Below, piece by piece: positions 2,661 through 63,543 of a stretch of 64,000 nucleotides of DNA. The translations under genes were made by a program, and so were the position numbers. The notes beneath the pieces were generated by a model. That model saw only the letters and a list, made by a program, of their open reading frames with translations. It searched no databases and was not told the DNA's origin. Source of the stretch: a bacterium (GTDB lineage: Bacteria; UBP6; JAFGXH01); the NCBI GenBank assembly GCA_027064085.1, contig JAMOQH010000126.1:27898-91897 (forward strand), given 5' to 3'. Each line of letters begins with the position of its first letter. The stretch's first letter is position 1.

Positions 2661-2948
2661 ATGGCAAGAGTAACTGTAGAAGACTGCCTAGTGAAAATAC
2701 CAAATAGATTTGCATTAGTAATTCTTGCAACACAAAGAACAAGAATGTTGCTTAGAGGAGCTGATCCAAAAATTGAAAGTGATAATAAATTTCCTGTTAT
2801 TGCTCTTAGAGAAATCGCAGCAGGTTATGTAAGATTTACAAGAGATGTAGAAGAAGAATTAAAAGAAACATTTGATGAATTTAAAATCTCTTATTACTAC
2901 CCAAAAGAAAAGAATACCGATGAAGTTTCAGGATTAACTCTTATTTAG
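2661..2948 (+). CDS. rpoZ: RNA polymerase omega subunit
   Basis: The 95-aa product beginning [21 protein letters not shown] matches the omega signature (VEDCL.. NRFALV..A..R.. and the ALREIAAG helix). Omega chaperones the beta' subunit of RNA polymerase. The ATG at 2661 is chosen because GGAGG lies 4 bp upstream and the family N-terminus starts there. The frame stays open upstream to 2523, but that part covers the promoter and has no family similarity. The 3' end overlaps the convergent ankyrin-lipoprotein gene by 8 bp. Confidence 0.95.
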
Positions 2949-3900
2949 TATTTTCTATTTTTATTTTTAAATAATTTGCAATTTCAGTATTATTTTCGTC
3001 TATAGCAATTTCAAAACTATTTTTTCCATTATTATTTTCTTGTGTAATATCAGCACCAGATTCAACAAGTACTTTTACTATTTCAAGGTTTTTGCTCATT
3101 ACTGCACTCATTAAAGCGGTCCAGTTGAAGTTCGTTTTAGTGTTTACATTTGCTCCATAACCTAGAATAAGCATTACTGCATCGAGTTTTCCTGATTTAG
3201 CAGCACTCATTAATGTAGTCCAACCATCTCTATTTTGGGAGTTCATTTTTATACCTATAGAGTCTAAAAATGTCATCATTTCAATATTTCCTTTTTCTGA
3301 AGCAATTATCATTAAATTTGATTTGTTTTTATTTTTTCTCCAAAATTTAGGCATTTTAGTTTTAATATATTTAAGTATCTCTAAATTACCTCCTAACACA
3401 GCAAATTGAATTATTGTATAACCTTCATATAATCCTTCTTCTATTTTAAATTTGATATGAACTTTATAGGTTTCTATTAATTTTTTGAAATTTTTATAAT
3501 CCCCATTTTCTGTAACTATTGAAATTAAATTTCTACCATTAAAGTTAAATTTATTAAGTTTTGCTTTATTTTTTAATAATTCATTAAAAACTTTATATCT
3601 TTTATTTAAATAAGCAATTATTATTGGTGTATTATCTAAAGAATCAGGTTCATTAATATCATTTATTTTATTTTTTATTAACCATATAGAAATATCATCG
3701 TAACCTTTTCTTATGGAATATATTAAAAAACTATCTGTTTTATTTATTTTTTTATTTAACTTATAACCTTTTTGGTGAAATTCTTTTAAATCTTGTAAAC
3801 GCCCTCTTTCTATTGCTTCAAGAGGTGTTTTAGCTTTACAAGATGATAATATAATTAATAATATTATTAAAAATATATATAAGATTCTTTTAATTTTCAT
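2941..3900 (-). CDS. Ankyrin-repeat lipoprotein
   Basis: The 319-aa product starts with a lipoprotein signal peptide ending ILSSC (Cys21) and then carries ankyrin-type repeats over about residues 28-315. The clearest are [23 protein letters not shown], then [23 protein letters not shown] and [23 protein letters not shown]. Ankyrin stacks bind other proteins, so the likely role is a periplasmic or outer-membrane-anchored interaction partner. It is the last gene of the operon led by the adenylate cyclase, 7 bp after a small barrel gene. Its 3' end overlaps rpoZ on the other strand. Confidence 0.85.
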
Positions 3901-4450: not shown

Positions 4451-4938
4451 TAAAATTCTATCCTTATAAAAAAAACTCCACTTATTGACACTGCAATATA
4501 TTTATTGGTTCCAATAAATGTATAAACAGAAGCTTCAGTACCAATTTTTAGTCTTTTCCATATATTGTAGGCATGAAATAGTGCTCCTCCATAAGCTCTA
4601 AAATAAATCAAATGATTTAAATTGTTATCATTTAGCATATAATAACCTCCTCCATAACCAATAAAAGGATGAATATCAAAAAAATAAAATTCATACATCC
4701 AAGATAGTTCTAGTTGTATCTTTGATAATTTATTAAATTCAAAATTAGTAGAAATATTACTCTTAATATATAAGTTTTTACCTATATCAAAATTAAAAAT
4801 TAATCCATTATGTATATTTTTGTAATCTTCAGTTTTTAGAGTCCTTATGTATGTCATTTCTGAATCAAAAGAAACCCAGTTTTTTGAAAAGATATTTATT
4901 GTAGCTGTAAATATAATTAAATATATAAATATTTTCAT
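4450..4938 (-). CDS. Small outer-membrane-barrel-like protein
   Basis: The 162-aa product has a signal peptide (MKIFIYLIIFTATINIFSK) and a strand-rich body ending GVFFIRIEF, a typical barrel C-terminus with a final Phe. The stretch HPFIGYGGGYYML resembles a Gly/Tyr-rich hairpin of small eight-stranded barrels. It overlaps murG by 4 bp (ATGA) upstream and the next barrel gene by 1 bp downstream. No named family is recognised. Confidence 0.6.
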   Translation of the reverse strand: MKIFIYLIIFTATINIFSKNWVSFDSEMTYIRTLKTEDYKNIHNGLIFNFDIGKNLYIKSNISTNFEFNKLSKIQLELSWMYEFYFFDIHPFIGYGGGYYMLNDNNLNHLIYFRAYGGALFHAYNIWKRLKIGTEASVYTFIGTNKYIAVSISGVFFIRIEF

Positions 4939-6020
4939 TTATCTATGTATTCTAGAACTTTTTTTAAAATTATTTCTTCTGTTTTTTGTTTAGGTAGTAA
5001 ATCAAAGCTAGATTTCATTTCAGAATATTTTTCAGGAGAATTTTTTAATTCCATGATTTTACTGATTAGAATATCAGGAGTTAAATCTTTTTCTTCTATC
5101 ATAATAGCTGAATTACTATCCACTAATTCTCGTGCATTTAAAACTTGATGATTATCCGTAGCTTGTGGAAACGGTATTAAAATAGATGGTTTTTTAACTA
5201 GTTTTAATTCAGAAAGAGTAGTCGCTCCAGCTCTGCATATAATTAAGTCTGCATTATTATAAGCAGTTGACATATCCTCTATAAATGTTGTTAATTCGAT
5301 GTTTTCGGCTTTAGGATTAAATTTAGAGTATAATTCTCTAGTTTTGTCATAGGTGTATTTACCTGTTTGGTGAATGATATTAAAATCTTTTAAGTTAGGA
5401 GATGCTTCTGCAATAATTTCATTTATTTTTCTAGCTCCTTGACTTCCACCAAATATTAAAATATTTTTGATTTCACTGTTACTTTTTTTTATTTCTATTT
5501 CTCTGATTGCTTTTCTTACTGGATTTCCACTAAATACAATTTTTTCTTTTTTAAAAAATTTATGTGAATATTCAAATGTTGTAAAAATATTATTTACAAA
5601 CTTACTTAATATTTTGTTGGTAATACCTGGAACGGAGTTTTGTTCAAAGATAAATGTAGGATATTTCTCCATCCATGCAGATATTAATGCTGGCCCCGAT
5701 GCATAACCTCCTAAACCAATAACAGCATCAGGAACAAAATTATTTATTATTTCTTTGGATTTAAATATAGAACTTGGGATTTTAAATAAATTTTTTATAG
5801 TATTTTTTTTACTTGTACCTTTTATTCCGCCAATATCAATTAACTCTAATTTAAAATTTGTTGCAGGAACTTTTTCCACTTCAATACCTTTTTTAGTTCC
5901 TATGAATAAAATATCTACATTTGTTAGGTTTTCTTTGAGATAGTTGGCAAATGCCAAGCCTGGAAATAGGTGGCCACCTGTTCCTCCTCCTGCAAAAATG
6001 AATCTATAATTTTTTTTCAT
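4935..6020 (-). CDS. murG: UDP-GlcNAc : undecaprenyl-PP-MurNAc-pentapeptide GlcNAc transferase MurG
   Basis: MurG converts lipid I to lipid II on the inner face of the cytoplasmic membrane. The 361-aa product has the N-terminal GGGTGGHLFPGLA loop, the middle GGSQGARKIN motif, a late IICRAGATTLSEL motif that contacts UDP-GlcNAc, and PQATDNHQ. Length is normal for the family. Usually murG sits in the dcw cluster beside ftsW and murC. Here it lies in a cAMP-signalling operon, overlapping the phosphodiesterase-like gene by 4 bp, while murC is 8.4 kb away. Confidence 0.97.
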   Translation of the reverse strand: MKKNYRFIFAGGGTGGHLFPGLAFANYLKENLTNVDILFIGTKKGIEVEKVPATNFKLELIDIGGIKGTSKKNTIKNLFKIPSSIFKSKEIINNFVPDAVIGLGGYASGPALISAWMEKYPTFIFEQNSVPGITNKILSKFVNNIFTTFEYSHKFFKKEKIVFSGNPVRKAIREIEIKKSNSEIKNILIFGGSQGARKINEIIAEASPNLKDFNIIHQTGKYTYDKTRELYSKFNPKAENIELTTFIEDMSTAYNNADLIICRAGATTLSELKLVKKPSILIPFPQATDNHQVLNARELVDSNSAIMIEEKDLTPDILISKIMELKNSPEKYSEMKSSFDLLPKQKTEEIILKKVLEYIDK

Positions 6021-6778
6021 ATCTCTATTGTTTCTCCCATTTTAGCAAATCTAATTCTATGATCTTTTATCTGTTTTACTTCCTCTATAACGGTATTCGT
6101 TACAGAAGGCTTAATATGGTATAAGTAGATAGGAACATCTTTTTTAATCTTTTTTAAATCTATAGCAAGTGTTGCAGGAGAATAATGTTTTGATGCATCT
6201 GCAACATCTTGAAGAGCATTAGAAAATGAAATTTCCATAAAAATAGCCTTTAGGTTTTTCTTTCTATTTGCTGTTTTCCAAATTTGATCAGTATTGCTTG
6301 TATCTGATGAATAAATAAAACTTGATTTACCATCATCAATAACAAATGCAGTTGATAAAACAGTGTGATTAACTTCAACAGAAGTTATTTTATATCCACC
6401 CATAGAAAACTTACTGTTAGGTTCGGTTCCTTTAAATTTAAATACTGGATTTTCCTTTGTTGGAATAGATGTAAAATCTGGCCAAATTAACCAATTGAAT
6501 ATATTGTTTTTAACTACTTCTAAAGTTTTATGTGCTCCTCTAACATTAATTGGAGGTCTTTGTCCAAAAATTAAATCACCCCATAAAGGCAGATCTTTTA
6601 TGTGATCCATATGTGAATGGCTTAATAATAAGTTGTCAATTTTAAGCAATGATTCCATATCCATTGAATGCAATAAACCACCTGCATCAATTAATAATTT
6701 ATCATCAATTAAATAACTTATGCTATGATTTTCAACTCCTAGTTCTCCACCACTTACGCCTAGCATTGATATTTTCAT
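6017..6778 (-). CDS. Class II cyclic-nucleotide phosphodiesterase-like metallo-hydrolase
   Basis: The 253-aa protein has a metallo-beta-lactamase fold with LLLSHSHMDHIKDLPL (HxHxDH zinc site), a late Asp in SSDTSNTDQIW and a C-terminal LYHIKPS. The pattern IFMEISF...SKHYSPATLAIDL followed by HIKP is what I associate with class II cAMP phosphodiesterases (PDEase_II family), rather than with RNase Z or beta-lactamases. The predicted reaction is cAMP to AMP. The neighbours strongly support this: a cyclic-nucleotide-binding protein ends 8 bp upstream, preceded by an adenylate cyclase. It overlaps murG by 4 bp. Subfamily assignment is inference. Confidence 0.8.
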   Translation of the reverse strand: MKISMLGVSGGELGVENHSISYLIDDKLLIDAGGLLHSMDMESLLKIDNLLLSHSHMDHIKDLPLWGDLIFGQRPPINVRGAHKTLEVVKNNIFNWLIWPDFTSIPTKENPVFKFKGTEPNSKFSMGGYKITSVEVNHTVLSTAFVIDDGKSSFIYSSDTSNTDQIWKTANRKKNLKAIFMEISFSNALQDVADASKHYSPATLAIDLKKIKKDVPIYLYHIKPSVTNTVIEEVKQIKDHRIRFAKMGETIEI

Positions 6779-6786
6779 ATATTCTC

Positions 6787-7443
6787 CTAATTAAACTCTT
6801 TAAATCTTTCTTTTTTAGTTAAGTAATCAAAAAATTCACTAAATACTTTAAAGTCAGGAATTTTAAAAATTGGACCATTTATTTGAATTAATAGCTCATT
6901 TCTAACTAATTTTGCCAAAACTTTTTTTATTATAATTGAGTCTATCATAATTGAAGATGCTATATCTGAAACAATTATAGTTAACTCTACTTCATTTTCT
7001 TCTTCTTTCATCACTTCAATGCCTTTCTCTCTTAAATAGTGAACAACTCGGCTTTCTGGTGTTCTTAGAAGTAAGTTTTCTATTTGTAAGTCTGCTTGAG
7101 CAAGCCTAGTTGCGAGTTTTTGTAGCATTTTTATTGCAATATCAGCATTTCCTCTTATCATTGCCTCAAAAGTAGACGGATTTATTACTAATATTTTTGA
7201 ATCAACAGAAACTCTTATTGTTGCAGTTCTTGGTTTTCCATTAAGTATTGCCATTTCTCCAAAGAATTCTCCTTTTTGTAATGTTGCTAGTACTTTTTCT
7301 TGGCCACCTATTTTTTTTAAAACTTCAACTTCTCCTTCTTGAATTACAAACATCTCATTACCCTTATCGTTATCATGAAAAAGGTATTCTCCTTGTTTAA
7401 AAGACTTTCCGTATTTATTAAATAATTGTTCTTCTGCACTCAT
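6787..7443 (-). CDS. Cyclic-nucleotide-binding, Crp/Fnr-like protein
   Basis: The 218-aa protein has an N-terminal cyclic-nucleotide-binding domain (about 10-125). Its phosphate-binding cassette GEFFGEMAILNGKPRTATIRV carries the Glu that contacts ribose and the Arg that contacts the cyclic phosphate, so cAMP binding is likely. The C-terminal part (about 145-205) has the length and helix pattern of a Crp winged helix. However, the recognition-helix region (VSDIASSIMIDSIIIKKVL) lacks the usual T.E.VSR, so DNA binding is uncertain. The gene sits between the predicted cAMP synthase and cAMP phosphodiesterase, which suggests it is the effector of the module. Confidence 0.85.
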   Translation of the reverse strand: MSAEEQLFNKYGKSFKQGEYLFHDNDKGNEMFVIQEGEVEVLKKIGGQEKVLATLQKGEFFGEMAILNGKPRTATIRVSVDSKILVINPSTFEAMIRGNADIAIKMLQKLATRLAQADLQIENLLLRTPESRVVHYLREKGIEVMKEEENEVELTIIVSDIASSIMIDSIIIKKVLAKLVRNELLIQINGPIFKIPDFKVFSEFFDYLTKKERFKEFN

Positions 7444-7452
7444 CTAATCTCC

Positions 7453-10434
7453 TTATTTAGTGGTCATTTTAAAGCTACCGTCCCAATTAGCGTCAGGAGG
7501 AGTTTCTTTAAAATGATTACATCTATCTATGTATTTTTCTGAAAGATAATCATTAGGCTTTATTTCTAATATTTTATTAAAAATAGCTATTGATTTATCC
7601 CAATTTCTATCCCAATAATATTGTATTCCTTGATTTGTTAAATCGCAAATTCTTAATAATTCTGTATTATGTTTATGTTTGGATAATAATTCATAAATGA
7701 TAACAGGCTCATTTTTACCTTTAACTTTAACTGCGTCTAGTTTTCTACAGAGCAGGGAATCTTTAACTAATTCGTATGTATATTCACTTATAATAATATT
7801 AGTTTTATATTGTTTATTGATACCTTCTAAACGAGAACCTAAATTAACATGATCTCCCATTACGGTATAATCAAATCTTTGTTTTGATCCCATGTTTCCA
7901 ACAGACATGTCTCCAGAATTAACTCCTATACCTATATCAATAATAGGTAAGTTTCTTGCTTTAAATTCTTCTCCAAGAATTTTTAGTTCTTCCATCATTT
8001 TTAATGCAGTTAAGCAAGCTCTCATTGCATGGTCATCTTGTTTAATAGGGGCTCCAAAAAATGCCATAATAGCATCGCCCATATATTTATCTAGTGTTCC
8101 TTCATAATCAAAAACACATTGAGTCATTGGAGTAAGATAATCATTCATAACGACTGATAATTGATCAGGTGTTAATCCCTCTGAAATAGTTGTAAATCCT
8201 CTAATATCACTAAATAACACAGAAATATTTTTTTTAACTCCACCAAGTGCTAATTTAGAAGGGTCTTTTAGTACTTCGTCAACGACAGATTGGCTTAGGT
8301 AGTATTTAAAAGTTTTCTTAACCATTTGTTTTTCTTTTTCTTCACTAAAGTATCTAAATATTGTTATTGATAAAAACATTATAGATGGAGTAAGTAGGTG
8401 TATTAAAATATAGAGTAAATAGCCTTGGCTAAAGAAAAATTTTACATCAATTAGAAAGATTATATATGTTGCAAGAATTGTTATAATAACATTTATATAA
8501 ATTTTTAAATATGAAAATAAAATACCTAGAAAGATTACAATAAATACTAAAAAGATAAGCTCTAAAGGTAAAAAATAGTATGGTCTTTTAAAATAACTAC
8601 CGTCTAGAATATTTTCTATAAAAGTAGCATGAACTTCAACTCCAGGGTATGCTTGTGAGGGGTTATATGGAGATGATCTTAAATCAAGAAGGCCTGTTGC
8701 TGTTGTTCCAAATAAGATTATCTTTCCATTAATATATTTTTCTATTTCTTTATGAGATAACTTATCAGTTAAGATAGTTTTCATTGAGATATATTTGAAT
8801 GTTTCTCTCGGACCATAATAATTTAATACTAAATATGGAGTGTCAGATTCTAGTTTTAGTTTTTTCTTACCTGAAAAATCAAAATAATAGCCTAACTCCG
8901 GTAATCCATTTACTTCATACCTAAGTGCAAAAGTATCTTCTTTTTTATTTTTATCTTGATAAAATACTTTTAATGCAGATAATCCAAGAGAATATAAAAC
9001 ATGCCTTTTCTTTTGTTCATCTTCTATAGTATATGCAGGATAATAGTTTCTTGCAATTCCATCAACATCAGCAATTAGGTTAAATGATCCAAAGTTGTCA
9101 GTAGCAAGAACTCCCTCTGCTCTATCTAGCATATCCATTAATTCTTCAGGGATTTCATCTTCAGCATTATCTATTTTTTTATTGATTTCATCTACTAGTT
9201 TTTTGGGAAGTGGTTTTTCTGCCCAAACGATATCTTTATATGGAGAATTTAATGCTTCAAACTCTGCAAAAGAAACATTTTTGTTCAAATTTCCTTCGAT
9301 AAGCTTTACTTCTGCCCTTGATATTATGGAATTAAAGTTTTCTCTTTTTCTTTTTTCTGAAATATTAGCATCTTGAGAACCAAAAGAGTAACCTACATAA
9401 CCTAGTATAACATTTCCTGCTTTTTTTATTGCTTTTGCAAAAATTTTATCTGGTGATATTTCATTTGATTTTTTATTTAGAAAATCAAGATATTCTTTAT
9501 TTTTACTTTTCAGGTCATTAAAGCTTATTCTGTATTGTTTTATATTTTCTTCTATCGTTGCTATTATTTTTTTAGTTTGATAAATATTATTTTTTAATTG
9601 CTTTAATAGCTTTGTTTCTTTTATTGTTTTTGTTTGTATTTTTTTAGAAAGTTTTTTTCTATTTTTTTCTATTTTTTTAAGTGTTATTTGGGATTTATAT
9701 AATCTTTTCTTTATTTTTTTTAATTCTAACTCCTTTTGTTTAATTAATTCATTTAATTTTTTTATAATTTCACCATTTGAAGTTAGAGATATCTTTTGAA
9801 ATTTATTATATAATTCTTTAGATGTTTTAATTGATTCATTATTACTTGGATCAGCAAAAACCATATCAAATGCAACTGCTTTTGCTCCCATCTTTTTTAA
9901 TTTTAAAACAATATTTGAAAGTTTTCTTCTATCTATAGGCCAACCATATTTATCTAAAGTGGCATCATCCATATCAATAATAGTAACAGAATTAGAAACT
10001 TTTTTGATTCCTCTTGTGTTATATTTAAATTTTTCAATAGAGCGTTCTAAATAACCAAATACTCCAGAGTAAACATTATTATTAACCGTAAAATAATCTA
10101 ATGTTACAACTAGTATAACTAAATACATTACAACAGCAAATGCTGATTTTGATGGATTTATCCTTGTTCTAGCTTTTTTATCAGTAGCTAACAAGGGAAT
10201 TATTGGAGTCAGAATAAAAGATGATAAAAATAATAATATTATTTTCTTTTTACTGTATTTTTGCTTTATAAGATAATAAAGCCAATATAAGAATATCGAT
10301 GATACTCCAACAGCTATAGAAATATCTGTTCTTAATATTGAAAATAATGATAATAAAAATAGTACAAAGTTAATATATAACAATAGCACTAAGGGGTTTG
10401 TTTTGGGATTAATTATATTTATTAAAGCTTTCAT
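7453..10434 (-). CDS. CHASE2-domain adenylate cyclase (class III)
   Basis: The 993-aa membrane protein contains, in order, two or three N-terminal membrane segments (to about 115), a CHASE2 sensor split by a long Lys/Glu-rich coiled coil (about 205-325), three membrane segments (about 610-690), a class III cyclase domain (about 720-905) and a TPR-like tail. Catalytic features are visible: FSDIRGFT with its metal Asp, DKYMGDAIMAFFGAP with the second metal Asp and the adenine-specifying Lys, and FDYTVMGDHVNLGSRLEG with substrate Asp, Asn and Arg. The Lys/Asp pair predicts ATP, not GTP, as substrate. It heads an operon with cAMP-binding and cAMP-degrading genes and has its own promoter. The ligand of CHASE2 is unknown. 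Confidence 0.92.
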   Translation of the reverse strand: MKALINIINPKTNPLVLLLYINFVLFLLSLFSILRTDISIAVGVSSIFLYWLYYLIKQKYSKKKIILLFLSSFILTPIIPLLATDKKARTRINPSKSAFAVVMYLVILVVTLDYFTVNNNVYSGVFGYLERSIEKFKYNTRGIKKVSNSVTIIDMDDATLDKYGWPIDRRKLSNIVLKLKKMGAKAVAFDMVFADPSNNESIKTSKELYNKFQKISLTSNGEIIKKLNELIKQKELELKKIKKRLYKSQITLKKIEKNRKKLSKKIQTKTIKETKLLKQLKNNIYQTKKIIATIEENIKQYRISFNDLKSKNKEYLDFLNKKSNEISPDKIFAKAIKKAGNVILGYVGYSFGSQDANISEKRKRENFNSIISRAEVKLIEGNLNKNVSFAEFEALNSPYKDIVWAEKPLPKKLVDEINKKIDNAEDEIPEELMDMLDRAEGVLATDNFGSFNLIADVDGIARNYYPAYTIEDEQKKRHVLYSLGLSALKVFYQDKNKKEDTFALRYEVNGLPELGYYFDFSGKKKLKLESDTPYLVLNYYGPRETFKYISMKTILTDKLSHKEIEKYINGKIILFGTTATGLLDLRSSPYNPSQAYPGVEVHATFIENILDGSYFKRPYYFLPLELIFLVFIVIFLGILFSYLKIYINVIITILATYIIFLIDVKFFFSQGYLLYILIHLLTPSIMFLSITIFRYFSEEKEKQMVKKTFKYYLSQSVVDEVLKDPSKLALGGVKKNISVLFSDIRGFTTISEGLTPDQLSVVMNDYLTPMTQCVFDYEGTLDKYMGDAIMAFFGAPIKQDDHAMRACLTALKMMEELKILGEEFKARNLPIIDIGIGVNSGDMSVGNMGSKQRFDYTVMGDHVNLGSRLEGINKQYKTNIIISEYTYELVKDSLLCRKLDAVKVKGKNEPVIIYELLSKHKHNTELLRICDLTNQGIQYYWDRNWDKSIAIFNKILEIKPNDYLSEKYIDRCNHFKETPPDANWDGSFKMTTK

Positions 10435-10461
10435 AAACCTACATTTAAAACTTAGTTAGAC

Positions 10462-10490
10462 ATTTTAAGATTAATATATTGAAATGTCAA
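10462..10490 (-). promoter_or_regulatory. Sigma-70-type promoter of the adenylate cyclase-murG operon
   Basis: On the minus strand TTGACA (10485-10490), a 17-bp spacer and TAAAAT (10462-10467) lie 28 bp before the cyclase start codon. No further strong promoter is visible down to 2941, so murG and the barrel genes probably depend on it. Confidence 0.75.
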
Positions 10491-10525: not shown

Positions 10526-10553
10526 CCCCTAAAAAAGTAAACTCTTCTAGGGG
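10526..10553 (-). terminator. Flagellin mRNA 3' hairpin / terminator
   Basis: A 12-bp stem with a 4-nt loop begins 9 nt past the flagellin stop. As minus-strand RNA all 12 positions pair, two by G-U wobble, while the plus-strand RNA would have two A-C mismatches, so the hairpin is built for the flagellin transcript. The outer six pairs are CCCCTA/TAGGGG. No T-run follows on the minus strand, so it may protect the 3' end as much as terminate. Confidence 0.65.
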
Positions 10554-10561
10554 ATTTTTTA

Positions 10562-13552
10562 TTATCTTAATAAGCTCATTAAACCTTGAGCTTGCTGATT
10601 TGCTTGAGCCAGCATCGCTGTTGATGTTTGAGAAAGAATTTGTGATTTTGATAATTGAGTTGTTTCTCTTGCAACATCTAAATCTCTAATTGCTGATTCT
10701 GCGGCCGTAGTATTTTCTCTTTGGGCAGCTAAATTAGCCATAGTATATTCTAATCTATTTGCATAAGCTCCAATTCTTGCTCTTTCTGATGAAACCATAT
10801 CAATAGCTTCATCAAGAGTTCTTATGGATTCTTGAGCTGGTTCAGGATCTGTTAATAACACCCTTGTTATTCCTAATGCTTGTGCATCCATTTGAGAAAT
10901 AAATGCATTCATCATTTGCCCTTCGTTTGCTCCAATTTGAAAATCCATAGAGTTATCTACTATGTTAATTGTTTCAGTTGATGTTTCATCTGTTGAAGTA
11001 AAATCAAAAGCTCTAGTTGCAGTATTCCAATTAACATTTAAGTTATAATTTGCATCAAATTCTATATCAATTCCATCTATAACACCTTGAAGCCTATTGT
11101 CACTAACGGTATCTTGCCCTACAAATTCGCCTGTAATTGCATCTCTAACTGTAATGTCCATTTCATTGTTTTTTGCCTCTTGAATAGTAGAAACTCCTAG
11201 TGCATTTAATAAGTCTTCATTTGCTGCTAAATATAATCTACCATCTTTATCTGTTTTAGGAGATCTAATAACAATAGAGCCTTGCTGATTTTCAAAAGTA
11301 CCACTTGTTGGAGTATCTATATAATCGGCAACATGCTTATCTACAACTACATCACCTGAAGACATTCCCAATCCTCCATCACTTTTATCACCAATTATCG
11401 CATTCTCTATTTTCTCAGATAAAACATCTAGTGTGTCTAAACCATCGATTAGCACTGTTGAGCTATCTCCAACTCCATTATATACTGTAAGATATTGACC
11501 ATGATCTCCAAGTATAAAATTTCCATCTGGGTCATAAAATCTATCTAAATCAATTAATCTACTATGGCCACTACTATCACCACCGCCATTCATTACATTA
11601 AATGTTACTATACCATCACTTACAGGAACACCGGTAACAGATTCATTAAAGCTTGTTGCCATAGTTCCAAATTCTATATGTCCTGTTTCTGTATTAATCC
11701 AACCTGCTTGTAATTCTGTTGATGCATTGTCTAAGGTGTTATCAATATGACTAAATACTGCACCTTGCTGAGGTAAATTATTTGAAGGGTCAAATGCATC
11801 TACTCTTGTTAAATCCCTATTGGGAGTATTGTCATTATCATTAAGGGCAATCAGCATTCTATCTCCAATTTGATAGTTAGCTCCATTACCATTATTTGTA
11901 AAAGCTCTATTAAACTCTAATGTCTGTATTCCATCAGTTACAAGAGTATCAGTTGCTCCATTCCAAATATCATCAGCACTGTACCATGTATCTCCCTGAT
12001 TAAATGACACTCTTGCATCTAGGCCAGCTGCCCCTAAGCTTCCATCTGATGTAAATTCAATAATCGCATAACCACCAGTTGCAGAATTACTATTAGTTGT
12101 GAATGCATCTGCTGCAGTAGTACCTAAATTACCTAAATTATTCGTAAATGCATGAAGTCCCTGATCTGCTACTTCAACTGTTGGATCCGCTCCTACAGTT
12201 AATGAATAATTGTTGCTTTGACTTGGGTCATCAACAGTAATTGTTACATTACCCGCACCATCATCATGGGCAGTAATATATTGATTTAAGTCTGTATTTG
12301 CATTAATTGCGTCTGCAATTTCAGTTCCATTACCTGCAACTGTACCTGTTGTTGTGTTTATTACAACAGGAATATCATCTCCACCTAAATTAAATGTTAA
12401 ATTTACAGCTCCATTAACTGCTGTTGCTGTAATGTCTCCAGACATTTGTGAGCTATTTAAACCATTTGAACCATCTTGTAAATATTGTCCAACCATTCCA
12501 TATATATCATTGGCACCAACTTGTAAGTTTCCATCTGCTCCTTCGTCAATATTTATTTTATAGTTTGTTGTAGTTGATGGAATTAAACCAACAGTGTTTG
12601 AAACACCTGAGATACCCGCTTGAGATTCATTACCTCCTGAGAAAATATGTATTCCTTGGTCTAATGGGTCAACTCCAGAGCCACTAATCGTAGCTTGAAA
12701 TCCATTGCCGGCAACACCAGTTTCTCTTGATGTGATTAAAACATCTCCTGTTGGAGTATAATTCGCAATAATACTATCATTTAATCTAGTATCATTATTT
12801 ATTTGATCAACAATTTCTTGTGCATTATCTAAAATGGTTGCACCAGTTGTTGTATAGTTAAAATCTATATCACCATTTCCAAAGTTAAAAATAACATCTA
12901 CATTTCCTGCAATTGCTGTTGGAGTAATATTTCCTTGCATTGCTGCTTGTTGTCCAAATAGTGTTATGTCTCTAACGCCTTTGACACCATCTTTAATTCT
13001 AAAAACAGATGTTTGTAATACTTGAGGAACGCCTGGGTCTGCATGTATTTCTAAGCTATAGGAACCGTCATCAACTTGACCTCTTACAAAAGCATTGATA
13101 TCTCCTGTTGAAGCAGACCATAATGCACTTGATTCACCAGTTAAAAGTCTTTTTGTATTAAATTCAGTTCTTTTTGCTGTAGCATCGATTTCTTTAATAA
13201 GGGATTCAACTTCATGTTGAACTTCAAGTCTATCATCTGAAGTTAATGTACCATTAGATGCTTGAATTGCTAATTCTCTCATTCTATGTAGCATTCCATG
13301 AACTTCATTTAGAGCTCCTTCTGCTGTTTGAATAAGTGAAGTTGCTGATTGAGCGTTTTCTTCAGCTCTTGATAAACCTCTTATTTGTGTTCTCATTCTT
13401 TCAGATATTGATAAGCCTGATGGATCATCTGCTGCCGAGTTAATTCTTAGACCACTTGAAAGTCTTGAGATGGACTTTGTAACCATACTGTTTGCAGTAT
13501 TTAAGTCATTTTGAGCTGATAAAGCAGCTAAGTTATTATTAATTGATAACAT
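10562..13552 (-). CDS. Very large flagellin
   Basis: The 996-aa product has intact flagellin ends: residues 1-140 with SISRLSSGLRINSAADDPSG and the D0/D1 coiled helices, and about 890-996 with the family pattern SSERARIGAYANRLE plus a terminal AMLAQANQQAQGLMSLLR. Usual flagellins are 270-550 aa, and the extra length is in the surface-exposed centre. That centre contains at least two homologous segments (about residues 198-305 and 365-460) that read like flagellin IN-type modules, each with an 'EI.D.IN..T.LN' helix and ending DQG.H.F. The export signal is uncleaved. GGGAGG stands before the ATG. No other flagellar genes are adjacent, so the filament gene is isolated here. Confidence 0.95.
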   Translation of the reverse strand: MLSINNNLAALSAQNDLNTANSMVTKSISRLSSGLRINSAADDPSGLSISERMRTQIRGLSRAEENAQSATSLIQTAEGALNEVHGMLHRMRELAIQASNGTLTSDDRLEVQHEVESLIKEIDATAKRTEFNTKRLLTGESSALWSASTGDINAFVRGQVDDGSYSLEIHADPGVPQVLQTSVFRIKDGVKGVRDITLFGQQAAMQGNITPTAIAGNVDVIFNFGNGDIDFNYTTTGATILDNAQEIVDQINNDTRLNDSIIANYTPTGDVLITSRETGVAGNGFQATISGSGVDPLDQGIHIFSGGNESQAGISGVSNTVGLIPSTTTNYKINIDEGADGNLQVGANDIYGMVGQYLQDGSNGLNSSQMSGDITATAVNGAVNLTFNLGGDDIPVVINTTTGTVAGNGTEIADAINANTDLNQYITAHDDGAGNVTITVDDPSQSNNYSLTVGADPTVEVADQGLHAFTNNLGNLGTTAADAFTTNSNSATGGYAIIEFTSDGSLGAAGLDARVSFNQGDTWYSADDIWNGATDTLVTDGIQTLEFNRAFTNNGNGANYQIGDRMLIALNDNDNTPNRDLTRVDAFDPSNNLPQQGAVFSHIDNTLDNASTELQAGWINTETGHIEFGTMATSFNESVTGVPVSDGIVTFNVMNGGGDSSGHSRLIDLDRFYDPDGNFILGDHGQYLTVYNGVGDSSTVLIDGLDTLDVLSEKIENAIIGDKSDGGLGMSSGDVVVDKHVADYIDTPTSGTFENQQGSIVIRSPKTDKDGRLYLAANEDLLNALGVSTIQEAKNNEMDITVRDAITGEFVGQDTVSDNRLQGVIDGIDIEFDANYNLNVNWNTATRAFDFTSTDETSTETINIVDNSMDFQIGANEGQMMNAFISQMDAQALGITRVLLTDPEPAQESIRTLDEAIDMVSSERARIGAYANRLEYTMANLAAQRENTTAAESAIRDLDVARETTQLSKSQILSQTSTAMLAQANQQAQGLMSLLR

Positions 13553-31781: not shown

Positions 31782-34700
31782 ATGTTGAAATTATTAAATA
31801 AATTATATTTTTTTATACTATTACTAACTTTATTTTCTGTCAATATTTTTGCTATAGTTGAAGGGACTTATCCCGATAGTACAAATTTGAAAAAATATTC
31901 AGTATTTGGTTCTGTTGTAACAACAGGAAATACCATGATGGCTACAACTCCTCCAGGTAATGTAAATGACATATTACTTTCAGAAAGTAGTGGAGATTTA
32001 AAAAATATGCCTTTTGATGCTGAAATTGTATCTGCACATATTTTTTGGTCTGGATCTCTTGGGCCAAGTTTGTTTGTACCAGATGACAATATAACACTTT
32101 TAACTAAAGATAATGATATTCATAATATTCAAGCTGATAGTTGTAAAGTTGTTACAAATATGGAAGGCTTTTATTATTGTTCTGCAGATATAACTACAAC
32201 TATTGTTAATCAAAATATTGTAAATTACAATGGTCGTTATACTGTTAGTAATTTAAAGGGAGATGTTGGAGATTGCGAAACGAATCCATATATTTGCCAA
32301 GCAAAATATGCTGCATGGAGTATGGTTGTTGTTTATAAGTCTAAGAGTGCAAAGGTAAAAAGGGAAATCTTACTTTATGATAGTTTTTTACATTTAGATG
32401 AAAGAGAAGATAGTATAGGTATAACTCATTTTGATATTACAAATTTAACAGTAAATAGCCCTGCAAGAGGAGAATTTACTTATTTTGGCCTCGAAGGAGA
32501 CAGGTTTTTAGGTGTTCCTCCTCAAGATGCTCCTGAAAATCAATATCCATGTGACACTTGTTATGATTTTATATCATTAAACAATGTAAAATTATACGAT
32601 GATTTAAATCCTCCTAACAATATATGGAACTCATCTATTGCAACTGCTGTAGATATAGATACTTTTAAAATTGGAAATCAAGGTTTAAATATTTTAAGAA
32701 GTGGAACCAATAAGACTATACATGTGAAACTTGGAAGTGGTGATGGAATTATTCCGAATGAACACCCTGAAGCAGGTGGAGGAGAATCTGTATTTTTAGG
32801 TTATGTGTTGCTTGCTCTTGATACAATTTCGCCTAATTTTAGAACAACTAATACAAATTTGATTGTTGATAGAACGGTTGCGTCTCAAGGAGATGAATTA
32901 ACTTATATTTTAACAGTTACTAATGATGGTTCTAAAATTGCTCATAATGTAATTGTTTCTAATCTTATTCCTCCTGAAACAACTTATGTGGATAATTCAA
33001 CTTATATAGATGGAGTACTTGCAAGTAACGATATTGCTACTCCAATGGGATTAAATATTGGCACTATAGATTTTAGAGGCACAAATAATAAAAAAATTAT
33101 TACTTTTAGAGTAAAAATAAAGTCTACTGCTATTGATGGAACTTATGTTTATAATAAAGCAAAAATTATAAGTGATGAAACAATCAATGACCCAAGTTTA
33201 ACAAATCAAGTTAAAACATTAATAAATGCTCCAGTATTACAAACTCCAATATTAACAGTTAGAGACGAAAATGGAGGAAGTTATTTACCTGGAGAATGGG
33301 TAGAGTATAGTGTTAAAATTTTAAATAATAGCAATAATCCTATATCAAATTTAGTTTATGAAAATACTTTAGGTCTTGATTTTACTCAAATAATGCTTAG
33401 CTCTATTCCTTTTAATGCAAGCGATAACTCAAATTTAGCAAACAAAAAAATAAGTATTTCATCAATTCAAGTTCCTGCAAGAAGTGCTATTTTTATTAAA
33501 TATAGAGCTAAAATTAAAACAATACAAGAATATATTGATTCTGGTACGCCAGAAGATCAAATAAACAATAAAAGTATCTCTAATCAAGGAGAACTATCTA
33601 TTTCAACAAGGCCAGAACTTATACTTACAGATAATGACAATGGTGGAAATGAGCATGATCCAACGGTATTTACTATAAAAAAAGAAGTAAATGCGAATTT
33701 TTCTGATTCAACTATGACAGTTGAAAATACTAATGGAAGTAGTGAATTTCATCCTGGAGATAGAGTTAAATATACTATAAAAGTTAAAAATTCAGCAACA
33801 GCAACAGTTAATGCTATAAATGTATTAAATGACATAGATGAAAATTATTTTGAGGAAATTACCGTTAATAATGGTTTTTATGATGGGGATAAATTAACAT
33901 GGCTCATAGCTTCCTTAGCTCCAAGTGCAGAAACAACATTAATTTTTACTGCAAAAATTAAAAAGCCACAAGCTAATGGACTTGTTATTCAAAATCAAGC
34001 AAGTATTTTTGTTGCAGGACGCTCAGATTTAACAGATGATCCAACAACTACCATTTTAGATGATCCAACTAAGTTTACAATTACAGCAAGTTCATCAAAT
34101 TTTATATTTTCAACTAAAGAAGTAATAGATGAAAATGGAGGAACTTATTTTCAACAAGGAGATTATGTTACTTATGTTATAAAAATTAAGAATACAGGCG
34201 AAGCCGTAGGGGGAAATTTAACCGTAGAAGATTCAATTAATAGTAATCTTGTCGATATAGAGGTATTTAATAATGGAGTTTATAATAATAATAAAATAAC
34301 TTGGAATTATATCAATACCCCAGAATTAGTAAATGTATCAGGCGAAGTTACTCTTAAATTTAGAGCAAAAATCAAAAGTACAGTAGCAAATGGTACTGTA
34401 ATATCAAATCAAGCTTTTATTAGTTCTACAGACAGTCCTAGAACATATTTAACAGACGATCCAACAACTTCTAGTGTAAGTGATAGTACAAATTTTACTG
34501 TTAACTCAGCTGCAGAATTAACAGAATCATATAAAACCTACGAAGATTTAAATGGTGGTGATATAGAGCCAGGCGATGAGATAAAATATACTATTCAGTT
34601 AAGAAATACAGGTAACTTAGAAGTTACAAATATCTCTGTTATTGATAATGTAGATACAAATAATCTTGAAAATATTATAGTGGAAGATAATGGAATTTAT

Positions 34701-37700
34701 AGTAATGGCAACATAAATTGGGCAGGTATTACTAGTCTTGCTCCACATACAAATTTAGAACTACATTTTACGGCTAAAATAAAAGAAAACACTACTCATA
34801 ATACAAAGATATCAAATCAAGCTATAATTATGAGTACAGAAATACCATTTGCATTCACTGATGATCCAAATACAGCAGAAAAAGACGATGCAACTAGCTT
34901 TTTAGTTATGGCAATTCCTGATTTGTCTTTTACTAAAACAGTTGTAAATACAAATGGAACTACAGAATTTAAAATAGGTGATAGAGTAAAATATACCATT
35001 AATATAGTAAATAATTCTTCTTCTGAAACTGGAAATATAACAATTACAGATTTAATACCTCGTGATTTAGAAAATGTAACTCTTTCAAGTGGAGGAATAC
35101 TAAATGGTAATCAAGCATATTTTTATTTACAACCTATAACTTCTCCTATAGCTTTAACTATAGAAGGTGATATTAAAGCTAGTGGTGAAATATGTAATCA
35201 AGCAAGCCTTGAAGATGTGAATTTTAATTATACTATTAACTCTGACGATCCTAATACCTTAAGTGAAAATGACAGTACTTGTTTTAATGTTATACAAGTT
35301 ATAAAAGTTGAAAATTTCAAAAAAACATTTACAGATATCAATGGTGGTAATATAGAACCTAATGATATTATTGAATATGAATTAAGTTTTGACAATAATA
35401 GTGATGTAAGTTTGAACAATTTGGTTATTACAGATAATATTGACACTAATTTAACAGATATAAACTTAATAGATGGTGGATATTTTAACGGAAATATTAT
35501 TACATTTAATTCTTTAAATACTCCTAAATTAGCAAATATTGCTCCAAACACTAGTGTTATTATTAAATTTAGGGCAAAAATTAAAACTCCACTTGCAAAT
35601 AATACTGTTATTTCAAATCAAGCAGAATTAAACATTGAAGATATTAACTTAGTTTCTGATAATCCTAATACTCCTATTGAAAATGATGCTACAGAGTTTA
35701 ATATTGTTTCTTCTCCTAAAATAAAATTTACTAAAGTTGTTAAAAATGTAAATAACTCAACAGAATATAAACCAAATGATAATGTCATGTATACTATAAC
35801 TGCTTTAAATACAGGTACAGAAATAGCAAATAACATACTAATAAAAGATATATTAAGTAATGATTTAACTAATTTATCAGCATCTCAAGGTAGTTTCAAT
35901 AATAACGAATTTACATTAAATTTACCTCAATTAAATGTAAATCAACCTATAACTATAACAATTAATGCAAAAATCAAAGATAGCGTTAGTAATAATACAG
36001 TAATTTCAAATCAAGCTTCTTTAGATAGTGATAATACTAATCAAATACTTTCTGACGATTCTGATACCCCTATTGCTAATGACCAAACTAAATTTACTGT
36101 AACTAGAGAAACTTTGCCTACAAATTTAAAAGCTTATAAAACTAGTGATAAAAAAATATATTTTAATAATGATATAGTAACTTATACCATAGAGCTTAAA
36201 AATGAAGGGCAAACTACCGTAAATAATATTATTTTAACTGATGAATTAAATAGTAACTTAGAATTTATTTCTGCAACAAATAATGCAGTATTTACTAATG
36301 GAGTAATAAAATGGGATTACAATACTAGCCCTGATTTGCTGTCTATTATGCCTAATAACTCGGTAAATATTACTATAAAAGCAAAAGTAAAAAATACTGT
36401 TAGTGATTCTACTATTATAGAAAATCAAGCAAGCTTTACATTTAACAATGAGCCTGAAATTCACCTTACTGACGACCCTAGTACTCCACAATTCGATACA
36501 ACTAAAATTACTGTTGCTAGTTATGATGTTTCTGATTCAACAAAAGAGGTTTTTGATTCTAATAATGATGGTGCATTTGTTCCAAATGAGGAGTTAACAT
36601 ATAAAATTACTATTAAAAATAGCTCCAGTATTACAACAATTAGAGATATAAATGTAGTTGACTATTTTCCATTTTCAAAACTAGATTTATTGGATACTAC
36701 CGGTTTAATTATCAATGAAACAAGTAAAACTATTACTTTTACTCCAGAAAATTTTCCTGAATTACTAGAATTAGCTCCTAATACTAGTGTAGAACTTATA
36801 TTAAGGGCAAAAATTAAAGATTTAGCCACAAATGGAACTACAATAAGTAATCAAGCATTTATTTCATTTAATGGAGAAAATCAAAATATTCCAACAGATG
36901 ATCCTAAAACTACTGATATAGATGATGCAACTAATTTTAAACTTTCTGCAAAAGCAGATTTATCAGATTTTACTAAAACAGTAGCATCAGATAATGGATA
37001 TTTTCCTAATGAAGAAATCAGATATACCATTAAAGTTAAAAATAAAGGAACCGCAAAAGCTAAAAACTTAATAATTACCGATTCTATAGATGATAATCTT
37101 GAAATTATAGATGCTCAAGAAGGTGAAATAACAGCTAATAAAATATTGTTTCACTATAATAACATTGATACATTAAAAGAGTTAAAGTCAAATGAAGAAG
37201 TGTCATTTGTTATCAAAGCAAAGATAAAAGATGGAGTAAATAACAATAAAATAATATCTAATCAAGCTATACTTAATTCTGAATCAATTCCTAATTCAGA
37301 GCTTAGCGATGACCCAACTACTACCCAAGAAAATGATGCTACTATATTTAAAGTAATTAATTCCTCTAAATTATATGCAGAAAAGATAGCAATAGATTTA
37401 AATGCGGGTAAAATAGAAATTGGCGATATAATAAGATATCAAATAAAAGTATATAATAAAGGTTACAAAACATCTTTTGATACCAAATTATACGATGAAA
37501 TTCCTTCTTATACTCAATATATAGAAAATTCAACAAAATTAAATGATGAAACTGTAGCTGACAATAACGGTGTTGCCCCTTTTATAGATGGAATGGATTT
37601 AGGAGATATAGATATTTATGATAATACAGATAATACCGTTAAAATAATTACTTTTGAAGTTAAAATACTTGATACTGCCCCTGATGGAGCTAAAATAGAA

Positions 37701-40700
37701 AATCAAGCAAGTATAGAAAATGCAGATGGAGAGAAAGCTGTTACTGATGATCCAAATACTAGTCAAGAAAATGATGCTACTGTAATTTATTTAGATGATA
37801 GCTCTTCTATTTTTAATAAATTTGATAAAACCGCAATACTTGAAGATACAAATAATAATGGTAAAGCAGATATAGGGGAGCTTATAAAATATCAAATAGA
37901 ATTAGATATTAAAGATTTGCCAGAAACTATTACTATAGAAGATGCAATACCACAAAATACTAACTATGTTTTTGGTAGTTTACAAGTAAATAGAATACAT
38001 CAAACAGATGAACAAGATACTGATATGGCATATTTTGAAAACAATAAAGCTTATTTTAAAATTTATCCTTTTGAAGATACTAATACTAAAGCTAGTCTTT
38101 CTTTTAAAGTAGAAATAAAAGAAGGAAATAAAGTTGTAAATCAAGCAAAAACATTTTTTGATAATAAAACTTATTTAAGCGATGACCCTAATACTCCTAT
38201 CAAAAACGATGCAACTATAACTTACATAGGAGATACACAAGAAGCTAATTTATCTATAAAAAAAGAAGTAAAAGATATTAATGGGGGCATTACTTTAGCA
38301 AACGACGAATTAGAATATAAAATTACTGTCCAAAATACTGGTAATAAAGAGGCTGAAAATAGTGAAATTATAGATGATTTACCTGAAAGTTTGGAGTATA
38401 TTTCTAATAGTGAAGAACTTTCTGATGTTTCTGCTCATTATATTTATAATCCTAATATAGGCAATGGACAAATCAAAATTTATGGATTGAATATAGACAA
38501 AGCTGGTAAATTTATTGTAAAATTTAGAGTTAAGATAAAAGATACTGTTCAAAAAGCTGATAAAATTACAAATATTGCAACTTTAAATAATGAAAAACAG
38601 AGTAGTGCTTCTGTAGTTATAGGAGCTAGTGCTGGAACAGCATCTATTTACGGAGATTTATCATATTTTAATGAAAATAATGAAAAAATAGCTCTAAAAA
38701 ACTATAAAATTGAAATAACAGAAATCAAAAAAGCAGAAAATCTAAAAGTTTATACTACTACAACAGATGAAGATGGTTTATTTAGAATTGATAATATCAA
38801 ACCTGCAGAATATTTATTAAAATATTATAATTCAAATGGTACTTTCTTTGGAGAGAAAAAATTAAATTATTTAAGTTCTGAAAACGATAACAAGCTCAAT
38901 CTTGTTTTTATTCCTACTGGTTTTATTTATAACTCTAAAACAAAATCCAAAATAGATAATGCAAGAATTTATTTATATAATAAAACAGCAAATGACAACA
39001 TAATTCATTCAAATTGTTTTGATTTAGACTTAGTTACTCTTCCTACAAATCAACAAGGTCAATTACTAGAAAGCAATGGTTTATATAAATTTACTGTTAA
39101 AGATACTAACTATGATAAGCTAGGTATATGTGTGATGGGATATCCAAAATATACTTTCCCTTCTAGCCTTAAAAAACCTTCTTTTGGTGAAGTTGAAAAT
39201 GAAAATGGACATATTTCTAATAATAAATATTATCTTGAATTTACTCCAACTGATAATTTAGACATTCTTAATAATAATAATATAGCTCTTGACCCAATTG
39301 AAAACTCAATTAAAATCACAAAGTCAGTTGACCAAAAAACTTCTACAGCAAATTCTATTATTACATATAGAATTAAAGCTCAAAATAAATCTAGCTATTC
39401 TTTTGAAGGAACAAATGGTGTTTTTATATATGATTTACTACCTAAAAACTTTAAGTTAATCAATAAATCATACAAAGCAATAATAACTAGCTTAGATGGA
39501 AGTCAAAAAGTAATAAAAGATATAGCTATTAATTTATCATCTCAAAATTTAACATTTGGTCCTATAGATTTTAAAGAAGGTGATGAGATAGAAATATCAT
39601 ATAGAGTTGCAATAGGTTCCAATGTTAAATTAGGTAAATATAAAAATATTGCCTATGTATTAGATAGTAATTTAGAAAAATTATCTTTTGAAGCTAGTGC
39701 TGTTATACAAATTAAATATGATTTTGATTTTGATATGGGAGCGGTAATAGGTAAAGTCTATTGTGATGACAATAAAAACTCATATCAGGATATAGGAGAA
39801 ATAGGTTTAAAGAATGTTGATATTTATAATGATGAAGGCTTTGTTTCTAAAACTGATGAATATGGAAGATACCACTTTACAGTATTAAAACCAGGGGCTC
39901 ATTTAATAAAATTAGATAAAAATACTTTATTATCAGGAATAAAACCTATTGAAGAAAAAAGAACTATAAGGATAACAAAAGGTTTATTATCAAAAGTAAA
40001 TTTCCCCGTTGATTGTAAAGAAGTAAATAAAGATAAAAAGTTTTTAGCTATAAATAAGAAAAAAGCTAAACTTAGCCCTATCAAGGATTTAATAACATTA
40101 AGGGGCAATTTAAATAAAAGAATCTTTTTGGGTAATAAAGAAATAACTGTAAAAAATTATATATTAAAACAAAATAAAAAATTAGTCACAGAAGATGAAG
40201 AAAATACTTATTTTATTAAAGATTTAAATGATAAAGTTTTAGTAAATTATTATATTTATAAATTTGATAAAGAATTATTTAGCAACAAAACTAAATTAAC
40301 AGATTTATATAGATTTATACAACAACGGGGTAAATTAAAGATAAAATTACCTGCAAATCAGTATCTTGTTTTTGCTGAAATAGTAAAAAATAATAAAATT
40401 TACAGAACTGCTCCTATAATTTCTATGTCTCAAAGAATACCAAATGAAAAGGGAGAAGGGTTAATAAGTTTTAAAAAGCTAAAATTTGAGTTTAATCCAC
40501 AATTATTTATTAATGGAAGGCTAATAAATAGCTCAAAATCAGGTAATCTATTTCATGTTTTTCATAAAGATAATCTAAAAAATGCCTCAATACTCTATAA
40601 AGCTCCTAATGGTATATCTGTAAATGAACTAATGGCTTTAGCTGTTAGTTCTAGTAAGAGTGTTGCTTCTCGTAATCATGTTAGTATTGATGGTATTGGT

Positions 40701-62460: not shown

Positions 62461-63045
62461 TTATCTTCCTTGAAGTTTTTTAACAACTAATTTAGCAATA
62501 CCTTTTAGTGTTTCAAATACACCATCTCCACTAGCTGCAGACGCTTTGAATACAGGAAAATGATATGGGTTGAGTTCAGCATTTAATTCTTTTAAGTCTA
62601 TAATATTTGGTAAATCCATTTTATTATATTGAATAACAGTAGGAATATCTTTTATATTGTATCCATATTCAGCTAAGTTATCAACAAGATTGTCCATGCT
62701 TTCTAGGTTAGCATCATATCTTGGCTCTTGAACATCTGAAACAAAAACAATACCATCAACTTCTTTTAGGATTAATTTTCTGCTTGCATTATAAAAAACC
62801 TGTCCTGGAACAGTATAAAGATGTAATTTCGTTTCAAATCCATTAATTTTGGCGACTTCAATAGGTAAAAAGTCAAAAAATAAAGTTCTATCAGCTTCGG
62901 TAGCTAATGAAACCAAGCTTCCTTTTCTTTCTTTATTTGTTTTATCATAAATATATTGTAAGTTGGTTGTTTTACCACAAAGCCCAGGCCCATAGTAAAC
63001 AATCTTTAAATTTATGATTCTACTTGCATAATTTATAAGTGGCAT
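62461..63045 (-). CDS. mglA: MglA polarity-switch GTPase
   Basis: The 194-aa small Ras-like GTPase closely resembles Myxococcus MglA. Landmarks are YYGPGLCGKTTNLQYIYDKT (P-loop), TEADRTLFFDFLP, LYTVPGQVFYNASRKLIL with the MglA-type replacement of the G3 DxxG Asp, and QYNKMDLP (G4). MglA sets cell polarity for gliding and type IV pili and is turned off by the MglB GAP. Here mglB lies 12 bp upstream. The degree of motif match is very high. Confidence 0.95.
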   Translation of the reverse strand: MPLINYASRIINLKIVYYGPGLCGKTTNLQYIYDKTNKERKGSLVSLATEADRTLFFDFLPIEVAKINGFETKLHLYTVPGQVFYNASRKLILKEVDGIVFVSDVQEPRYDANLESMDNLVDNLAEYGYNIKDIPTVIQYNKMDLPNIIDLKELNAELNPYHFPVFKASAASGDGVFETLKGIAKLVVKKLQGR

Positions 63046-63057
63046 ATTAATCCTTTA

Positions 63058-63543
63058 CTAAAAATCAAAAAGATTATCAATATCTTCATCGGTAATATTT
63101 TCTAAAAACTTAGGTGTTGAGTGAGACTCCATCTTTTTTAATAGATTATCGTATACTTCTTGTATAGGAGAAACAATAGATTTCATTTTCAACCTTACTA
63201 ACCCTAATGATGTTGTTTTACTAAATATTACAACAAAAATAATCTTTTCATTTAATATAGATATATAAATATTATTTTGTTTTCCTTCGTGAAATAATAC
63301 AGAGAATTCTTCTTCATCAATTATCGTAGCTAATCCAGTTGTTGCAGAAACTGCTCCAGCTATTAAAGATGCTAAAGATGTTACATCTAGGATATTAGTA
63401 TTTCCGGATTCAACAAGAACTTGCCCCGATTTAGATAATAGAAATGCGTATTTTGAACCTGATTTTTGTAAAAAATCATCAAGAATAGCTTTAAATTTTT
63501 GATATTCTTCATCATATAATATTATATCGGTGTTATTAATCAT
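63058..63543 (-). CDS. mglB: MglB roadblock/LC7 GTPase-activating protein
   Basis: The 161-aa product has a roadblock/LC7 domain (about 10-125) with LLSKSGQVLVESGN and ASLIAGAVSATTGLA, as in MglB, and a C-terminal acidic tail (ENITDEDIDNLFDF). MglB homodimers activate GTP hydrolysis by MglA at the lagging pole. It is the first gene of the mglB-mglA-porin operon and has an extended -10 promoter. Confidence 0.92.
   Translation of the reverse strand: MINNTDIILYDEEYQKFKAILDDFLQKSGSKYAFLLSKSGQVLVESGNTNILDVTSLASLIAGAVSATTGLATIIDEEEFSVLFHEGKQNNIYISILNEKIIFVVIFSKTTSLGLVRLKMKSIVSPIQEVYDNLLKKMESHSTPKFLENITDEDIDNLFDF

Follow-up and report, generated by a model that had tools for sequence, protein, structure and literature searches.

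Introduction

Class II cyclic-nucleotide phosphodiesterases are held to be mainly eukaryotic, and one member of the class, yeast PDE1, hydrolyses both 3',5'-cAMP and cGMP. The nearest described arrangement to the one considered here is the cyaD1-clr-smc02178-spdA locus of S. meliloti, where a CHASE2 cyclase, a CRP-family cAMP receptor and a putative phosphodiesterase are encoded together (PMC4222275, PMC13001267). The phosphodiesterase SpdA at that CHASE2-cyclase locus acts on 2',3'-cAMP only, so gene neighbourhood can mislead as to the substrate of a phosphodiesterase (PMC4222275). A connection between cAMP and the cell envelope has been described in mycobacteria, where lowering cAMP disturbs peptidoglycan synthesis (PMC9293780).

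We describe here a bacterial locus, within a stretch of 64,000 nucleotides (the window), in which genes for a CHASE2 cyclase, a CRP-like cyclic-nucleotide-binding (CNB) protein and a metallo-hydrolase stand side by side and are followed by murG. The original prediction, made from the DNA letters, was of a self-contained cAMP module coupled to the envelope. The reading that we favor, and to which we give a probability of roughly 0.78, is a conserved three-gene cassette that makes, binds and degrades cAMP, with murG as a passenger.

Results

The open reading frame list, taken with Pfam and NCBIfam matches, gives a minus-strand gene order of cyclase, CNB protein, metallo-hydrolase and murG, and the reading frames, matches and junctions agree in putting the three cAMP genes and murG where they had been predicted. 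The features of the locus are as follows.

4935 to 6020, minus strand: murG, 361 aa (TIGR01133, 324 bits, over cut-off); overlaps the phosphodiesterase (PDE) gene by 4 bp
6017 to 6778, minus strand: class II-type cyclic-nucleotide phosphodiesterase with a metallo-beta-lactamase fold, 253 aa (assigned by PDEase_II, profile and fold)
6473 to 6484, minus strand: class II block WPDF, residues 99-102, invariant in 29 relatives
6602 to 6619, minus strand: metal-binding motif HSHMDH, residues 54-59, ligands invariant in 29 relatives
6787 to 7443, minus strand: CRP-like cyclic-nucleotide-binding protein, 218 aa (Pfam cNMP_binding, 7.4e-25)
7216 to 7269, minus strand: intact phosphate-binding cassette of the CNB protein, residues 59-76, GEFFGEMAILNGKPRTAT
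7453 to 10434, minus strand: CHASE2 class IIIb adenylate cyclase, 993 aa (assigned by Pfam and PDB matches, transmembrane-like segments and catalytic residues)
9454 to 9822, minus strand: coiled-coil-like insertion in CHASE2, residues 205-327, with an SMC-like match
10462 to 10490, minus strand: promoter-like site TTGACA-N17-TAAAAT, 28 bp upstream of the cyclase start codon, 11/12 matches
10526 to 10553, minus strand: hairpin with a 12-bp stem, between the flagellin and cyclase genes

The genes are closely packed, with 9 bp between cyclase and CNB protein and 8 bp between CNB protein and PDE, a GGAG-type ribosome site at each of these junctions, and the predicted 4-bp overlap of the murG and PDE reading frames. 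From this spacing, all four genes are likely to lie on one transcript. The hairpin (RNA fold -16.1 kcal/mol, z -2.4) is likely the terminator of the flagellin gene, which would have the module start its own transcript, although there is no long U-run in the sequence directly 3' of the stem. The promoter-like site is the best of the region, and its upper coordinate, 10490, is also that of the predicted module; promoter-like sites overall are no commoner than in shuffled sequence, and it is position and quality that back this one. The flagellin itself (10562-13552) is unusual, with 996 aa and a very long central region between conserved ends. An ankyrin lipoprotein had been noted nearby, and ankyrin repeats are indeed found behind a lipobox-like signal in 2941-3900; the two small proteins earlier called barrels have no Pfam match. 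Elsewhere in the window are a 4054-aa protein (31782-43946) with many repeat units of the DxNGGxxxxGDxVxYTI kind, which is probably a giant surface protein, and a small Ras-like GTPase beside a roadblock-type protein (62461-63543) that, by eye, resembles an MglA/MglB polarity pair.

The cyclase matches CHASE2 (2.2e-43) and Guanylate_cyc (1e-22) in Pfam, and its architecture is that of N-terminal membrane segments, CHASE2, three transmembrane segments and a cyclase domain, with the transmembrane-like segments at residues 12-119 and 617-694 situated either side of CHASE2. PDB matches to the catalytic domain include CyaC, CyaB and further adenylate cyclases. The domain contains the metal-binding aspartates D743 and D787, K783, T857 and the transition-state residues N864 and R868, all of which vary little or not at all across 42-44 related cyclases; in the related loci, every cyclase has the Lys, the Thr and both metal-binding Asp. 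The prediction of a CHASE2 cyclase with an ATP-specifying lysine is borne out by Lys783, but its proposed partner, an aspartate, is not, and alignment to P. aeruginosa CyaB (3r5g) corrects the substrate-specifying pair to Lys783 and Thr857, as in class IIIb; the aspartate read earlier is probably Asp861 of a VMGD sequence, at another position. We infer that the protein is a class III adenylate cyclase of class IIIb that would make cAMP from ATP. The CHASE2 insertion, of about 120 residues, is common to G001, one of two genomes of a sister genus (G001 and G002), and is shorter or absent in other phyla; the CHASE2 span is 425 residues in the window, against 283-305 in most Myxococcaceae-type proteins and 227-234 in those of Nitrospirota and Mcinerneyibacteriota. 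This segment would be extracytoplasmic, and it alone hints at a sensing role particular to the family.

The phosphate-binding cassette of the CNB protein was predicted to be intact; it is, and it is the most conserved part of the protein among 22 relatives, with cyclic nucleotide binding itself being predicted. An AF2 model (pLDDT 85) is matched by CRP structures over its whole length. The C-terminal domain is homologous to the CRP winged helix, and a profile of this part matches those of DNR, MtbCRP and CRP with E values of about 3e-10 to 1e-9. Judged from sequence and model, the CNB protein probably binds DNA.

The hydrolase matches both PDEase_II (5.8e-11) and Lactamase_B_2 (2.9e-11) in Pfam. 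Its score against PDEase_II (PF02112) is 42.5 bits, where the cut-off is 23.7, and all 29 relatives also match PDEase_II; in the control genomes none of 14 is over the PDEase_II cut-off, and all 14 match RNase Z. When a profile of the hydrolase family is compared with the PDB, yeast PDE1 is best at 67 bits, with YhfI at 52 and RNase Z at 49. The AF2 model (pLDDT 95.6) has yeast PDE1 (4ojv) as its first-ranked fold match, with a Z-score of 28.1, 247 aligned residues and an rmsd of 2.0, and the Z-scores to YhfI and RNase Z are close to this, about one unit lower and within one to two units. The predicted class II PDE-like zinc site and H-x-K motif are both present, and the seven metal ligands (H54, H56, D58, H59, H138, D159 and H221), together with WPDF, H198, P201 and K223, are invariant in the 29 relatives. 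The IWPD, H-x-[ST]-P and H-x-K blocks are shared with yeast PDE1, and WPD is present in yeast PDE1 and absent from the RNase Z of the sister genus. The cut-off of the atypical class II PDE model NF041851 is not reached (38 versus 400 bits). Profile, fold and sequence blocks all place the hydrolase nearest to the class II PDEs and outside the RNase Z clade, and its predicted structure and motifs indicate that it very probably degrades cAMP.

A search with the PDE profile shows relatives of the hydrolase in at least 419 stretches of genome, and 80 named loci were examined, a sample that is drawn from the PDE side and biased to Myxococcota. Cyclase, CNB and PDE genes are adjacent and in one direction in 36 of the 80, in two gene orders and with gaps mostly below 100 bp, and these loci belong to Myxococcota, Nitrospirota, Mcinerneyibacteriota and a 'Bacillota' MAG whose PDE groups with Mcinerneyibacteriota in the PDE tree. 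The arrangements are as follows.

31 of 80 loci: cyclase-CNB-PDE (two with the cyclase cut by a contig end, one of these being the G002 contig)
5 of 80 loci: CNB-cyclase-PDE (three Nitrospirota, one Mcinerneyibacteriota, one 'Bacillota' MAG)
14 of 80 loci: CNB-PDE
6 of 80 loci: cyclase-PDE with or without a following CNB protein (mostly betaproteobacteria)
2 of 80 loci: PDE then CNB protein
22 of 80 loci: PDE alone with no cyclase or CNB gene nearby (a contig end accounts for some)

A tblastn search for a cyclase in twelve of the CNB-PDE loci found none. The trio is kept in both sister-genus genomes, and the order cyclase-CNB-PDE, being found there and in other phyla, is not unique to the window's genome. 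Its recurrence far exceeds chance, and there is good support for a real conserved signalling cassette; the repeated pairing of the hydrolase with proteins that make or bind cyclic nucleotides, in differing orders, argues that it works on cyclic nucleotides and is otherwise hard to explain. The receptor component varies. In six loci (L055, L067, L071, L072, L074 and L095) a large CNB-containing protein is encoded directly or closely downstream of the PDE, and all three of those checked are MscS-type channels with a C-terminal cyclic-nucleotide-binding domain, which are likely cAMP-gated outputs; such channels follow the PDE in several Myxococcota/delta loci. In two betaproteobacterial loci (L092 and L098) the cyclase-PDE pair is followed by a cNMP-binding domain fused to a rhodanese domain.

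A different setting is seen in other families of the window's own phylum (f2-f4; L011-L026), where a PDEase_II-type homologue of about 35% identity adjoins an RNase E/G gene. No canonical RNase Z was found in nine genomes of those families, several of them 99% complete, and a tRNA-Asn in L012, a locus of this homologue group, has no encoded CCA. This homologue may have an RNA-processing role in its families, and the subfamily is a caution that not every homologue should be given the cAMP reading. The PDE tree was read at its starred clades, and rooting with an RNase Z outgroup was left unused, since one of its two rows was the wrong reading frame (L108) and both had very long branches. The window and the sister genus form one such starred clade; betaproteobacteria may be the sister group of the window's PDE (94/86). 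Two database entries look mislabelled: DYRY01000158.1 (L028) is titled Anaeromyxobacter dehalogenans, yet has 30% GC and belongs to G002, the relative of the window, and L038 is titled Comamonas although its PDE falls inside Myxococcus in the tree.

Discussion

The organization of the locus suggests a simple circuit. A membrane-bound CHASE2 sensor, through its extracytoplasmic domain and in answer to whatever signal it senses, would control the synthesis of cAMP from ATP by a class IIIb cyclase; the co-expressed CRP-like protein would bind this cAMP and pass the signal on, most likely to DNA, and the class II-type metallo-phosphodiesterase would hydrolyse the 3',5'-cAMP and so reset the system.

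Some rival explanations concern the identity of the hydrolase. It is very improbable that the enzyme is an RNase Z-type or other nuclease whose place beside the cyclase has nothing to do with cAMP. The RNase Z model TIGR02651 does score it about as high as PDEase_II does and weakly matches all 29 relatives, but its 44 bits are far from that model's cut-off of 293. No canonical RNase Z was found in the window's genome (G000), nor in the nine genomes of families f2-f4, and the window's tRNA-Arg has no encoded CCA, so that some 3'-processing enzyme is needed; however, G000 is only 94.7% complete, and G001 and G002, with the same cassette, each have a separate RNase Z (281 and 274 bits respectively). 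In its WPDF, H-x-[ST]-P and H-x-K blocks the hydrolase agrees with yeast PDE1 and departs from RNase Z, and its gene follows cyclase or CNB genes in several phyla. On the cut-off, the PDE1-like blocks and the separate RNase Z of the sister genus we reject an RNase Z identity for this family. The enzyme could also act on another phosphodiester, either cGMP or the 2',3'-cyclic nucleotides that RNA decay yields, and shield the cAMP receptor from cross-talk rather than end a cAMP signal. SpdA at the S. meliloti cyaD1-clr locus is a precedent for this (PMC4222275), and the same-phylum homologue beside RNase E/G would fit an RNA-derived substrate. Nonetheless, SpdA is a class III (calcineurin-like) enzyme with another fold, whereas the hydrolase is nearest to yeast PDE1, and we consider such a substrate improbable.

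The output of the CRP-like protein and the role of murG also need to be weighed. We see some chance, although clearly a minority one, that the CRP-like protein does not regulate by binding DNA and that its altered winged helix has a different output, for example feeding back on the cyclase or the PDE. At the base-reading helix the S-R-E-T of MtbCRP is replaced by D-S-I-I in the window protein and by E-E-E-A in the family profile, the window protein has no HTH_Crp_2 match, and CNB proteins that are not CRPs adjoin the PDE in other loci. But 17 of the 22 relatives do match HTH_Crp_2, and the fit to CRP structures extends along the whole protein. Conservation is lower in the recognition helix than in the cNMP-binding barrel (2.3 versus 3.2 bits), although this comparison is within the family, and the helix would vary too if the DNA targets differ. 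The proposal that co-transcription of murG ties a local cAMP loop to peptidoglycan synthesis, with control running in either direction, has fared worse, and we now think it highly unlikely. In its favor are the 4-bp overlap in the window, the conservation of cyclase-CNB-PDE-murG in G001 and, from an unrelated system, the disturbed peptidoglycan synthesis of mycobacteria when cAMP is lowered (PMC9293780). However, a 206-bp gap precedes murG in G001, and in G002, which belongs to that genus too, the next gene after the PDE encodes an M32 peptidase and is on the other strand, and murG sits elsewhere, between lon and mreB (both named by eye from translations). There is no murG near the module in any of the 80 named loci, the adjacency being seen only in the window's genome and G001. 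On this synteny the coupling is rejected, and, the adjacency not being conserved, we judge murG to be a passenger particular to this lineage, placed last in the string of genes.

Within the make-bind-degrade cassette that we favor, synthase, sensor and phosphodiesterase do lie side by side, but to call the module self-contained is too strong. The window's genome has three further class III cyclases and about eleven further CNB domains, and cAMP made at the module need not stay in the loop. A broader proposal, which we hold as tentative and rather doubtful, is that of a portable cross-phylum cassette in which a CHASE2 cyclase and a class II PDE are combined with a swappable receptor to form an insulated local loop that does not feed a global CRP. 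The receptors may then include the CRP-like protein, perhaps binding DNA in an unusual manner, the MscS-CNB channel and the CNB-rhodanese protein.

Many bacteria have several cyclases and CNB proteins without known wiring, and a conserved operon in which a single CHASE2 cyclase comes with a receptor and an off-switch of its own offers a ready circuit for testing, which the presence of the trio in culturable myxobacteria (Corallococcus and Pyxidicoccus) makes practicable. The analysis also gives a likely role to the class II-type phosphodiesterases of a large bacterial family, and it suggests that eukaryotes are not the main home of class II PDEs. The literature searched, which was largely without subscription papers, yielded no account of the conserved cassette; the parts are from known families, and it is their assembly across phyla, in which a class II PDE is joined by swappable receptors, that seems not to have been described in that literature.

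Comparison with the individual families shows where the window's proteins conform and where they depart. The hydrolase shares with yeast PDE1, the V. fischeri PDE and PF02112 the metallo-beta-lactamase fold and the HxHxDH, FNxxIWPD, HLSP-type and HxK-type blocks, and yeast PDE1 is its closest solved structure; it differs in having 253 rather than 369 aa, in being about 25% identical over the fold, and in its location in an operon with a presumed cyclase. The atypical class II PDEs (Rv1339, C. glutamicum CpdA and B. subtilis YhfI; NF041851) are alike in fold, in a [T/S]HxHxDH motif, in similar length and in cAMP turnover, which is predicted for the hydrolase, but the hydrolase is far under the NF041851 cut-off and YhfI ranks below yeast PDE1 against the family profile. 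The CNB protein has the cNMP barrel, intact phosphate-binding cassette, C-helix and winged-helix-like C-terminal domain of the CRP/FNR family (E. coli CRP, MtbCRP, GlxR and Clr), although with its base-reading residues replaced and outside the reach of HTH_Crp_2. The S. meliloti locus has the same three kinds of component, but its phosphodiesterase is a class III (calcineurin-like) enzyme that cuts 2',3'-cAMP and not 3',5'-cAMP, spdA has its own promoter, and the locus has no class II enzyme.
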